DNA of 28,331 bases, from IMG/VR virus record IMGVR_UViG_3300033984_000199, positions 1 to 28,331 of that record; one strand, given 5' to 3'. The position numbers and the translations under genes were made by a program. The notes beneath the pieces are model-generated. The model saw nothing but the letters and a program-made list of their open reading frames with translations, did not search any database and was not told the origin of the DNA. The first letter of the stretch is position 1, and the number at the start of each line of letters is the position of its first letter. Origin of the DNA: a virus. Below are positions 18,791 through 21,497 of this stretch, piece by piece.

Positions 18791-19771
18791 TTAAAAAGGT
18801 AAAGAATCTCTTTGATTATTTAAAGATTCTGAATAATTTTTTAATTCTACAATTGTTTTTTTCGTTTCTGTTTGTTCGGCTGCATATATTTTAATATGGT
18901 TATTCGGGTTTGAATAATCTATATCATAATACCTAAATTTAGATATATCAAACCTTAAATTTATAACGCCTATTTTTCCGATACTTCGCGGTTTTATTTT
19001 ATTGAAATGAATTTGACATTGATTATCTGTTAAATCTTCCCTATGTACTGTAATCATACATTTACCACTATTGAACCATTCAGAACCGCCCTTTAAATCA
19101 TATGGGCCTGGGGGCGTTCTTTTGCCGTTTTCCTTATCCGTTAATTTTGGGTGAATTATTGTGTGTAAATGTAAATCATTATCTTCAGCTATTTGATTTC
19201 TATAAGGTAAAACGAATTCTAAATATTGCGCGTAACCCCCATAATTAGAATAATCGTGGCTTAAATCTTTCCAACTATCTATACACGCCGTGTGTAAACC
19301 CTCTTCATTTTTTAATTTAACCGCATAGTCCCAAAATTCCACCGCTGTTAATTTTGCTTTTACGTCACTTTTCGTAAGTACTTTAAAATAGTAACATACC
19401 CATTCGCTCGCTATACTTATCTCACTATCTGTAATTGTGTTCGGCGCGTCGGGATCAAATGATTTACCCGTTTTTTTATGTATTAAATCCGCTATTATTT
19501 CAATATTGTTACCTACATCGGGAAAATAAAGTAAATGTTTCCAGGAATAAAATAATGATGTATTCATTAAGCATTCCATTAATACTTGAGTTTTACCACT
19601 CATAGGGTAACCCGTCCAATCCGTACAACTACCTAATTGCATTGAATAATTATCTCGCATCGCTTCAAACCCTAAATACATTCCTTTTTCGTGGTACGTC
19701 TTTTTATAGTTCTGTAATGAATTAAGTATCTCGCTAGCTTGCGTTACCTTAAAACCCTTTAAATTATCCAT
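18791..19771 (-). CDS. Replicative DNA helicase-like ATPase (DnaB/RecA type)
   Basis: A 326-aa RecA-fold ATPase with Walker A GYPMSGKT at residues 54-61, a Walker B-like ACIDSWKDL (D165), the likely sensor HLHTIIHPK and a later KGGSEWFNSGKCMITVHRED segment like DnaB-type helicases. There is no primase or zinc domain, so it would unwind DNA with a host primase. It overlaps the initiator gene by 8 bp. The C-terminus ends NQRDSLPF, resembling the SSB tip; the phage SSB also ends LPF. Confidence 0.82.
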   Translation of the reverse strand: MDNLKGFKVTQASEILNSLQNYKKTYHEKGMYLGFEAMRDNYSMQLGSCTDWTGYPMSGKTQVLMECLMNTSLFYSWKHLLYFPDVGNNIEIIADLIHKKTGKSFDPDAPNTITDSEISIASEWVCYYFKVLTKSDVKAKLTAVEFWDYAVKLKNEEGLHTACIDSWKDLSHDYSNYGGYAQYLEFVLPYRNQIAEDNDLHLHTIIHPKLTDKENGKRTPPGPYDLKGGSEWFNSGKCMITVHREDLTDNQCQIHFNKIKPRSIGKIGVINLRFDISKFRYYDIDYSNPNNHIKIYAAEQTETKKTIVELKNYSESLNNQRDSLPF

Positions 19772-20396
19772 ACGGGTTAAATTTAGATTCGTTAGTTACA
19801 ACCGTATTTACATATTTAGAAAAATTAGTATTTACTAAAAAATGAGTAGGGGTATCAATCTTATTTATTTTTACCCATTCTGTGTCAATCATTATTTTGT
19901 ATGCGTGTTCAAAATCTTCAGGGGTATAATTTGCTTTTTTTAATTCTTTAAGATTGGATATATCCGTTTTTGTTAATGTTTTAAAATTTCCTTTAATTCC
20001 TTTATGCTTAAATTTCATTTCGTTAAACCATTTTAAAAAATTCACGGTTAAAAGCGTTTGCGCTTGCTTAACTAATTGTTCTTTCTCTTTCTCTTTCCCT
20101 TCTTCTTTCTCTTTCTCTTGTACCGAACCCCCTACCGTACCCCCTTGCGAACCCCCTACCGTACCCCCTTGACTAGGGGTTATTTTTGTTTTTGTTTTAT
20201 TCTCATATCCAAGAACTTGAGTATCTATATTAAATTTTTGAGATAAGTAAGCAAACTTTGCCATACCCGTTAATTCGGTATCTATTCCTTCAAATTGTTT
20301 TTGAATTAAAGCCCATAAAAATTTTAGTTTATCCGAATCATTTAATTCGTTTGCGACATCGTAATAACTACGATAAAAGTTAAATCCTTTTCTCAT
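19764..20396 (-). CDS. Replication initiator-like protein (DUF6291-type N-domain, DnaD-like C-domain)
   Basis: A 210-aa protein. The N-terminal domain (about 1-70: GFNFYRSYYDVANELNDSDK, then FAYLSQKFNIDTQVLGYENK) matches the DUF6291 type found in replication proteins of Bacteroidota phages. A low-complexity linker (about 72-110) contains two copies of SQGGTVGG and a run of Lys/Glu. The C-terminal part (YTPEDFEHAYKIMIDTEWVK) resembles DnaD-like or O-like primosome proteins. It lies just before the helicase gene, as lambda O before P. Its coding sequence carries the tandem repeat at 20124-20171. Confidence 0.8.
   Translation of the reverse strand: MRKGFNFYRSYYDVANELNDSDKLKFLWALIQKQFEGIDTELTGMAKFAYLSQKFNIDTQVLGYENKTKTKITPSQGGTVGGSQGGTVGGSVQEKEKEEGKEKEKEQLVKQAQTLLTVNFLKWFNEMKFKHKGIKGNFKTLTKTDISNLKELKKANYTPEDFEHAYKIMIDTEWVKINKIDTPTHFLVNTNFSKYVNTVVTNESKFNPYG
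20124..20171. repeat. Two perfect tandem copies of a 24-bp GC-rich unit in the initiator gene
   Basis: Bases 20124-20147 and 20148-20171 are identical 24-mers (starting CGAACCCCCTACCG on the plus strand) and encode a repeated glycine-rich octapeptide. A polypyrimidine stretch (TCTTTCTCTTTC type) is adjacent on the plus strand at about 20080-20120. In lambdoid phages iterons within the O gene form the origin, so this is a candidate origin element, but it could merely be a linker repeat. Confidence 0.75.
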
Positions 20397-20398
20397 AA

Positions 20399-20602
20399 TT
20401 AAAACATTAAAGAAATTTGTTTTTTCAATTCCCTACTTAATTTAATAGCTGTTTCTTTATCTAAAACAGTATAATTAGCGGAATAACCTATATCCTCTAT
20501 TTGAATAAACAGCATTCCAGCTGTATTAACATAAAGTTGTAATTGTTTTTCATATTGTTCGGCATCTTCATTTCCGCAAAAAATCAGTTTTACATTTCCC
20601 AT
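20399..20602 (-). CDS. Small hypothetical protein (67 aa)
   Basis: A 67-aa protein beginning MGNVKLIFCGNEDAEQYEKQ and ending SRELKKQISLMF. The ATG at 20600-20602 follows TTTATT, the usual AT-rich leader here; an ATG four codons upstream (20614) is possible. The frame is open farther to 20668, but that extension runs through the arm of a terminator-like hairpin, so it is unlikely to be translated. It starts 45 bases after the candidate small RNA's T tract. Function not recognised. Confidence 0.6.
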   Translation of the reverse strand: MGNVKLIFCGNEDAEQYEKQLQLYVNTAGMLFIQIEDIGYSANYTVLDKETAIKLSRELKKQISLMF

Positions 20603-20646
20603 AATAAACCGCATTTTATTTAAAAACACGTAAAAATTTAGTGTAT

Positions 20647-20741
20647 AAAAAAAACCTTTACATTCCATAGGGATTCGACTTCCTACTTCATATAAAGGTT
20701 AATTAAAATTCCTTTTGTTACTATAATGTCGAATCGTAACG
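20647..20741 (-). ncRNA. Candidate structured small RNA or leader with two kissing hairpins and a terminator
   Basis: Read on the minus strand from a predicted start near 20741: hairpin 1 has arms GTTAC (20740-20736) and GTAAC (20721-20717); its loop contains GATTCGAC (20735-20728). Hairpin 2 has arms AACCTTTATAT (20700-20690) and ATGTAAAGGTT (20663-20653), 11 pairs with one G-U; its loop contains GTCGAATC (20679-20672), the exact complement of the loop-1 octamer. Hairpin 2 is followed by six further T residues, like an intrinsic terminator. A TATATTTG box lies just upstream. A 90-100-nt transcript with a loop-loop or pseudoknot contact is inferred. It could be an sRNA or an attenuator leader of the 67-aa gene. 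Confidence 0.5.
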
Positions 20742-20745
20742 TTTG

Positions 20746-20753
20746 CAAATATA
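20746..20753 (-). promoter_or_regulatory. Promoter -7 box (TATATTTG) of the candidate small RNA
   Basis: An exact TATATTTG in the 165-bp gap between the HNH gene (ends 20768) and the 67-aa gene. Transcription would start near 20741. No good TTTG is found at the -33 position. Confidence 0.5.
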
Positions 20754-20767
20754 ATAATATTATTTAA

Positions 20768-21112
20768 TTACATACGTTTTTTTCTTTTATCCTTATTTAC
20801 ATTTTCGCGCATTGAAATAACTTGTAAATTATTCAGGTTGTTATTTAATGGGTTGTTGTCTATATGATCAACAACTATTTTCCTATCCCCGTAAACGTGA
20901 CCTAAAAACGTTTCAGCCATTAAAGCGTGTACTTTCCGCGTTACCCATTTTTGACCGTTAAACAAAGTTACTTGACCATAATCGCGTTTTGTTTTACTTG
21001 AATGCGGTTTTACTTCGCGGTTGTTTTTATGACAAAATATATAACCACTCTTTGAAATAGTATAACGTTCTTTATGTCCTGGAATGAATTTAATTATTGT
21101 CTTCATAATCAT
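20768..21112 (-). CDS. HNH endonuclease (NUMOD4/HNH type)
   Basis: A 114-aa protein with an N-terminal NUMOD4-like segment (KFIPGHKERYTISKSGYIFC) and a complete HNH motif: VDHIDNNPLNNNLNNLQVIS at residues 81-100 (D82, H83, N-rich loop), then an EN dipeptide. Typical of small homing-type nucleases that sit free-standing in phage genomes. The start overlaps the DnaA-like gene by 23 bp; a second ATG two codons later is equally possible. The basic end (KDKRKKRM) may bind DNA. Confidence 0.85.
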   Translation of the reverse strand: MIMKTIIKFIPGHKERYTISKSGYIFCHKNNREVKPHSSKTKRDYGQVTLFNGQKWVTRKVHALMAETFLGHVYGDRKIVVDHIDNNPLNNNLNNLQVISMRENVNKDKRKKRM

Positions 21113-21497
21113 ATATTTTTAATAGTGTTTTTTCTGTTTTAAGCATCATTTTTGCGCGAAAGTAATTAACTCTTTTTATTGATGGTAAAGGCCTTGTAAA
21201 CCTAAGTAACCGTACATTTTCGTAATCATTTAACAATGTTTCGACTTCTTTAATACTCCATAAAAACAATTTATCGTTTATTTGTGTATATAAATCATAA
21301 GTTTTTAAACCGTGCATTACTGTACAATGGTCTTGATTAAAACATTCGCCAATACCCATTAAAGACATTCCCGTGTTTTTGCGTAAAAAGTTAAACGCTG
21401 CATATCTTTGATAAACGATTTCGCGCTTTCTACTTTTTTTTGTTAACCCTAACTTTTCGCAAATCTTAATTACTTTTTTAACATCAACATTCTCCAT
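21090..21497 (-). CDS. DnaA domain IV-like DNA-binding protein
   Basis: A 135-aa protein whose residues 28-66 match the C-terminal DNA-binding domain of DnaA: VYQRYAAFNFLRKNTGMSLM followed by GIGECFNQDHCTVMHGLKT, which fits the DnaA signature (G-x-x-F-x-x-x-D-H-x-T-V). It lacks the AAA+ ATPase part. It may bind DnaA-box-like sites in the phage or host origin, or recruit or block host DnaA. It is encoded in the early cluster before the helicase and initiator. The C-terminal 65 residues are basic and unrecognised. Confidence 0.82.
   Translation of the reverse strand: MENVDVKKVIKICEKLGLTKKSRKREIVYQRYAAFNFLRKNTGMSLMGIGECFNQDHCTVMHGLKTYDLYTQINDKLFLWSIKEVETLLNDYENVRLLRFTRPLPSIKRVNYFRAKMMLKTEKTLLKIYDYEDNN

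Follow-up and report, generated by a model that had tools for sequence, protein, structure and literature searches.

The window analysed here, a 28.3-kb IMG/VR virus record, has its portal, terminase and tail genes and its replication region on the minus strand throughout. On that strand, the gap that separates an HNH endonuclease gene (20768-21112) from the gene for a 67-aa protein (20399-20602) houses an RNA that reads, 5' to 3' from 20753 to 20647, as a promoter box, a first hairpin, a conserved linker, a second hairpin and a U tract. The box, TATATTTG (20746-20753), is of the Bacteroidota type (TAnnTTTG), is seen also in homologues and lies 5 nt 5' of hairpin 1; the surrounding region (20738-20778) forms a weak A/T palindrome with an 81% self-match on the opposite strand. 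Hairpin 1 reads GTTAC-GATTCGAC-ATTATA-GTAAC, and its two strands (20736-20740 and 20717-20721) enclose the loop 1 octamer GATTCGAC (20728-20735) and an unpaired ATTATA (20722-20727) that is conserved in homologues fetched through the replication protein too. A 16-nt linker follows (20701-20716), A/G-rich and then U-rich, with the consensus AAAGRNRUUAUU. Hairpin 2 reads AACCTTTATAT-GAA-GTAGG-AA-GTCGAATC-CCTAT-GGA-ATGTAAAGGTT: an outer stem of 11 bp (20690-20700 with 20653-20663), a G•A-rich internal loop (GAA, consensus UGAA, at 20687-20689; GGA at 20664-20666) and an inner stem of 5 bp (GTAGG, 20682-20686; CCTAT, 20667-20671) that closes the loop 2 octamer GTCGAATC (20672-20679), the exact complement of GATTCGAC. 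The U tract (20647-20652) comprises 8 T in total, including two within the stem. Both hairpins are returned by the minimum-free-energy fold. The preliminary description had placed the box, the hairpins, the octamer loops and the T tract correctly; its 11-pair stem of hairpin 2 stands, and the 5-bp inner stem and the GAA/GGA internal loop had been missed. The whole structured RNA, of about 95 nt (20647-20741), is delimited by covariation and by a match to our second covariance model, R2 (20648-20744, E 3.5e-14 in a search of the window's own record).

As had been proposed, the RNA stands ahead of the 67-aa gene and the replication genes. The 67-aa protein, for which an in-frame ATG at 20617 is a possible alternative start, has no Pfam or PHROG match, and related small proteins occupy its position in four other loci (L004, L006, L018, L410). 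Behind it lies the gene for a 210-aa replication-region protein (19764-20396, minus strand) with a DUF6291-like N terminus (Pfam PF19808, E 2.4e-5, below the cut-off); proteins at this position are annotated 'replication protein' in cultured phages. Among the homologues the next gene in most cases either serves replication or is a small gene preceding one that does, and the genes concerned are diverse: they encode unrelated replication-type proteins (DUF6291-like, MSGWIKLHRQ..., MARPERNN...), many proteins of 60-70 aa, ParB/methylase-like proteins and HNH proteins. The position that separates the RNA from the replication gene, occupied in the window by 20399-20602 on the minus strand, behaves as a variable cargo site, with unrelated 60-70-aa proteins in different phages, some of them with the motif LDKETAIKxSKELRKQ. 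Just upstream, the window encodes a stand-alone protein of 135 aa that resembles DnaA domain IV (Bac_DnaA_C; 21090-21497, minus strand), possibly an origin-binding protein.

The spacing of these signals is strongly conserved. The box is found 4-7 nt ahead of hairpin 1 in 101 of 103 homologues, in which T and A dominate even its free positions and A-tracts lie upstream, and the upstream gene often stops 10-30 nt 5' of hairpin 1. At the other end, a T run of at least 6 occurs in 102 of 124 homologues, compared with about 6% of random windows from the same loci. The terminator-like look of hairpin 2 and its T tract, remarked on at the outset, is supported: with a U tract immediately behind a stable hairpin, the RNA bears the signature of a predicted intrinsic terminator. 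The first ATG comes at a median of 19 nt past the U tract (46 nt or less in 98/102); the intervening sequence is A/T-rich, lacks a Shine-Dalgarno-like sequence in 118 of 123 gaps and contains no second TAnnTTTG box in any of the 123.

In one sequence alone the arrangement is modest. The window RNA has a folding z-score of only -1.4, and its score with our own descriptor, 26.0, is the highest in the window, yet one of five whole-window shuffles reached 27.1. It was comparison with homologues that settled the observation as real. Relatives of the 210-aa protein were fetched from viral contigs, and upstream of most of them we found the same arrangement with other loops that were again complementary, for example GGTCTCAC/GTGAGACC, CATCTCAC/GTGAGATG, GGCTTCAC/GTGAAGCC and GAGTCTCA/TGAGACTC; hexaloop forms such as GAGCAG/CTGCTC occur as well. 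A first covariance model built from five homologues matched the window at E 2.7e-9 and also matched most of the other loci. Searching with the exact octamers was of little use for finding homologues, since it gave mainly chance matches except for one near-identical phage.

A search of IMG/VR viral contigs for hairpin 1 in which the loop was left free (GTTC-N6-ACANTATAG-AAC and GTTAC-N6-ACANTATAG-TAAC) selected RNAs independently of their loop letters. It produced 151 distinct matches, 106 of which have the promoter box, with 27 different loop hexamers among these 106. In 104 of them the exact reverse complement of the loop hexamer, preceded by GT, is present within 125 nt downstream, and the remaining two (GTTCCGAC/GTCGGAGC) differ by one U•G pair; when loops were swapped between phages as a control, 3% matched. 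Loop changes without compensation in related phages, which had been named as grounds for abandoning the loop-loop contact, were therefore not found among these 106 RNAs.

For the alignment of 100 sequences, model R2 was used without the loop-loop pairs, and the kissing helix was added afterwards. Standard pairs fill 97.1% of the pair cells (67.1% when shuffled), and the covariation score is 0.783, compared with 0.219 +/- 0.008 in shuffled and at most 0.127 in slid alignments. All four helices covary, as the preliminary description had suggested checking, the counts being of sequences rather than of phylogeny-corrected events. Helix 1, which forms the stem of hairpin 1, reaches 99.2% pairing across 99 distinct sequences, though the search patterns had partly set its letters, as they had those of ACANTATAG; ACANUAUAG is conserved also in loci obtained through the replication protein. 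The kissing helix is 96.2% paired, with changes on both sides in six of its eight pairs and with the last two pairs partly misaligned wherever an extra base is present. Helix 3, the outer stem of hairpin 2, is 97.2% paired with double changes in 11/11 pairs, and helix 4, the inner stem, is 95.9% paired. In a scan of all column pairs these helices rank at the top, together with columns 75-103 of the internal loop, where A.G and G.A replace each other. Among 29 close RNA pairs, changes in the kissing helix were double in 11 of 11 cases, against 22% of the changes in the outer stem. Complementary hairpin loops are thus maintained through compensatory change, as in kissing-loop RNAs. The shape has been retained while the letters changed and, judged from these alignments, the RNA is real and its structure nearly certain. 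The unpaired segments ANUAUA, AAAGRNRUUAUU and UGAA/GGA are strongly conserved too. The same scan contained no covarying competitor of the terminator stem, and hence no conserved, mutually exclusive antiterminator helix of the kind that marks riboswitches and attenuators, which leaves a classical two-state switch formed by the RNA on its own unsupported. Pairing of the linker with the terminator stem (AAAGG/CCUUU) can be drawn in some sequences but does not covary.

The RNA belongs to a widespread family, carried by viruses whose hosts are marine and freshwater Bacteroidota. It is mostly present once per phage record; in the few records with two copies (L203, L245, L280, L357, G466) the loops always differ between the copies, which head different genes: cassettes for ParB/methylase, helicase-methylase, a replication protein or a small late-region protein. 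Among 397 Flavobacteriaceae genomes the structural pattern was no more frequent than in the reversed control, and one genome had a model match, on a 3.5-kb contig. A phylum-wide set of host genomes gave 0/395, a weak negative as only ten candidates per genome were scored. A pattern at control level and a single model copy indicate that the RNA belongs to phages, and rarely to integrated ones.

The predicted energies point to a role for the contact between the loops. The kissing octamers have a GC content of 59%, compared with 36% for the RNA overall, and their duplex has a predicted median energy of -12.5 kcal/mol, calculated for a duplex without kissing geometry. Hairpin 1 alone is weak (median -2.4) and hairpin 2 is moderate (median -17.2). 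Given so strong a loop-loop duplex and so weak a first hairpin, the contact is predicted to be a main stabilising element of the fold. Because loop 2 is the apex of the predicted terminator and a gene lies right behind it, attenuation of the replication operon is the simplest reading. On the evidence of sequence comparison we lean towards regarding the RNA as the 5' leader of the replication-region operon and as a new structured-RNA family, in which a kissing pseudoknot within an intrinsic terminator would bring about attenuation; it probably sets how often the replication genes are read. Transcription would start next to hairpin 1, and the hairpins and the kissing helix would consequently form while the RNA emerges. 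Hairpin 2 would act as the terminator, its apex clamped by hairpin 1, and most polymerases would halt there and free a compact, roughly 95-nt RNA; the rest, a controlled fraction, would continue into the replication genes. This fraction is probably altered at the conserved unpaired segments, whether by a host factor, a phage factor or RNA polymerase itself, and the conservation of these segments suggests that a factor is bound. We think that the contact stabilises the terminator, and an effect of the opposite sign is possible; it may switch termination on or off, as was originally suggested. The free RNA and the leader, which had been offered as alternatives, are compatible: the one would be the terminated RNA and the other part of the read-through mRNA.

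Terminated small RNAs also occur just upstream of genes, so placement alone is no proof of action in cis. The RNA might be a stand-alone small RNA that acts in trans on host or phage RNA or protein, with the downstream genes merely following its terminator. Its own promoter, compact fold and predicted terminator would suit such a role, as would its strongly conserved unpaired nucleotides, but the ATG follows the U tract at an almost fixed spacing that contains no further promoter box, which speaks against it, and we hold this explanation to be fairly unlikely. Extra copies of the loops that might serve as targets elsewhere in the phage showed no excess (2 and 7 octamer matches in phage loci, compared with 4.3 and 5.6 expected).

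A more speculative and, in our judgement, doubtful proposal is that of a control element of a new category, made of RNA only: a pseudoknot close to the promoter, with a terminator as its second half and with interchangeable loop 'codes'. The freed RNA would act on leaders of the same code and set replication timing or superinfection compatibility across many Bacteroidota phages. An immunity or copy-control RNA of the P4 CI or ColE1 type acting in trans, in which loop pairing between the freed RNA and nascent leaders of its own loop type alters their termination, with specificity residing in the loop type, strikes us as improbable. Loop-loop complementarity ahead of replication genes and 27 loop types on one scaffold speak for it. 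Every two-copy phage seen has unlike loops, which fits it too, but in five phages that is the chance expectation as well. The loop pairs change at the pace of the other stems in close RNA pairs (9.5% compared with 9.6-11%), giving no sign of diversifying selection on the loops, and the practical absence of the RNA from host genomes makes prophage immunity unlikely.

The chances are small that the RNA loads on RNA polymerase as an antiterminator, as HK022 put does, or that it binds an elongation factor of the host, with the result that this terminator and later ones are read through. The promoter-proximal, compact fold of two stem-loops with conserved unpaired bases is reminiscent of put, and use by different phage groups within one host group suits a target conserved in the host, but put itself has no terminal terminator. 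A DNA-level inverted repeat, an operator or origin element mimicking RNA structure, would account for loop pairs that are almost purely Watson-Crick, but it is refuted in the main by the covariation of the hairpin stems, for the repeats sit in the loops of two further, G-U-tolerant stems, and the promoter and U tract are found on one strand only.

Rfam 15 had been expected to hold no family for this RNA, and it gave no match at the gathering score in the window, none in eight homologous loci even with E values up to 5 allowed, none except a tRNA in eight further loci (five from cultured phages) and only below-threshold chance matches for the isolated RNA stretch; the model for c4 antisense RNA (RF01695) matched neither the window nor the homologous loci. 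Searches of the available literature returned no description of this RNA. By analogy, the RNA may work most like P4 CI, c4 and put, leader RNAs by which phages control early termination, although no feature that would specifically assign it to any of them was encountered. P4 CI RNA and P1/P7 c4, also short and phage-encoded, have complementary segments in loops or leaders, lie upstream of early or replication genes and act by premature termination. The likeness lies in a short phage RNA with complementary segments ahead of such genes, whereas here a single RNA holds both segments, the loop of the terminator is itself the second of them, the phages have Bacteroidota hosts and Rfam offers no match. 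In the leader pseudoknots of the IncI and IncL/M repZ type and in the kissing of ColE1 RNA I and RNA II, loop-loop pairing controls replication genes. Those are plasmid systems, however, with translational or primer control and an antisense RNA from the opposite strand, none of which was seen here. The HK022 put RNA likewise comes from a phage and lies close to its promoter; it has two stem-loops in about 70 nt and controls termination in cis (PMC9378689); unlike the RNA described here, put persists along the operon without a terminal terminator, and the available part of that source describes no kissing loops for it. For Gifsy-1 IsrK, a terminated small RNA and a read-through mRNA are reported to arise from a single phage promoter (PMC4825925), the combination that we propose here; the function of IsrK differs, and the likeness is one without shown homology. 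The c4 antisense RNA and its leader motif are listed in PMC2864571.

To our knowledge, little has been established about the timing of replication genes in Bacteroidota phages. The RNA occupies a replication control point in more than 100 different phages from metagenomes and in phages cultured on Flavobacterium, Cellulophaga and Olleya, which makes the question directly testable. A kissing loop within a terminator would constitute a compact, reprogrammable form of transcription control. The cultured phages carry the RNA in the same place. We searched Nonlabens phage P12024S and Flavobacterium phage 1/32 and found no convincing copy. In Flavobacterium phage FL-1 the copy has no annotated feature and the loops are CGTCTCAC/GTGAGACG; the snork, tooticki, hemulen and stinky phages have the octamers of FL-1 exchanged between the hairpins. 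The same pair is shared, in opposite hairpins, by FL-1 (KY421186, 18911-19026) and the lillamy group (MN812232, 13573-13684). Cellulophaga phage phi19:3 has CTCTCACAA/TTGTGAGAG, Olleya phage Harreka_1 has GTGGTGG/CCACCAC and the elemo phages have TGAGAGC/GCTCTCA, a pair read by eye to which the descriptor gave no score. In the elemo phages (MT497067; L480, 1864-2265) the RNA is placed after a phage tRNA gene.
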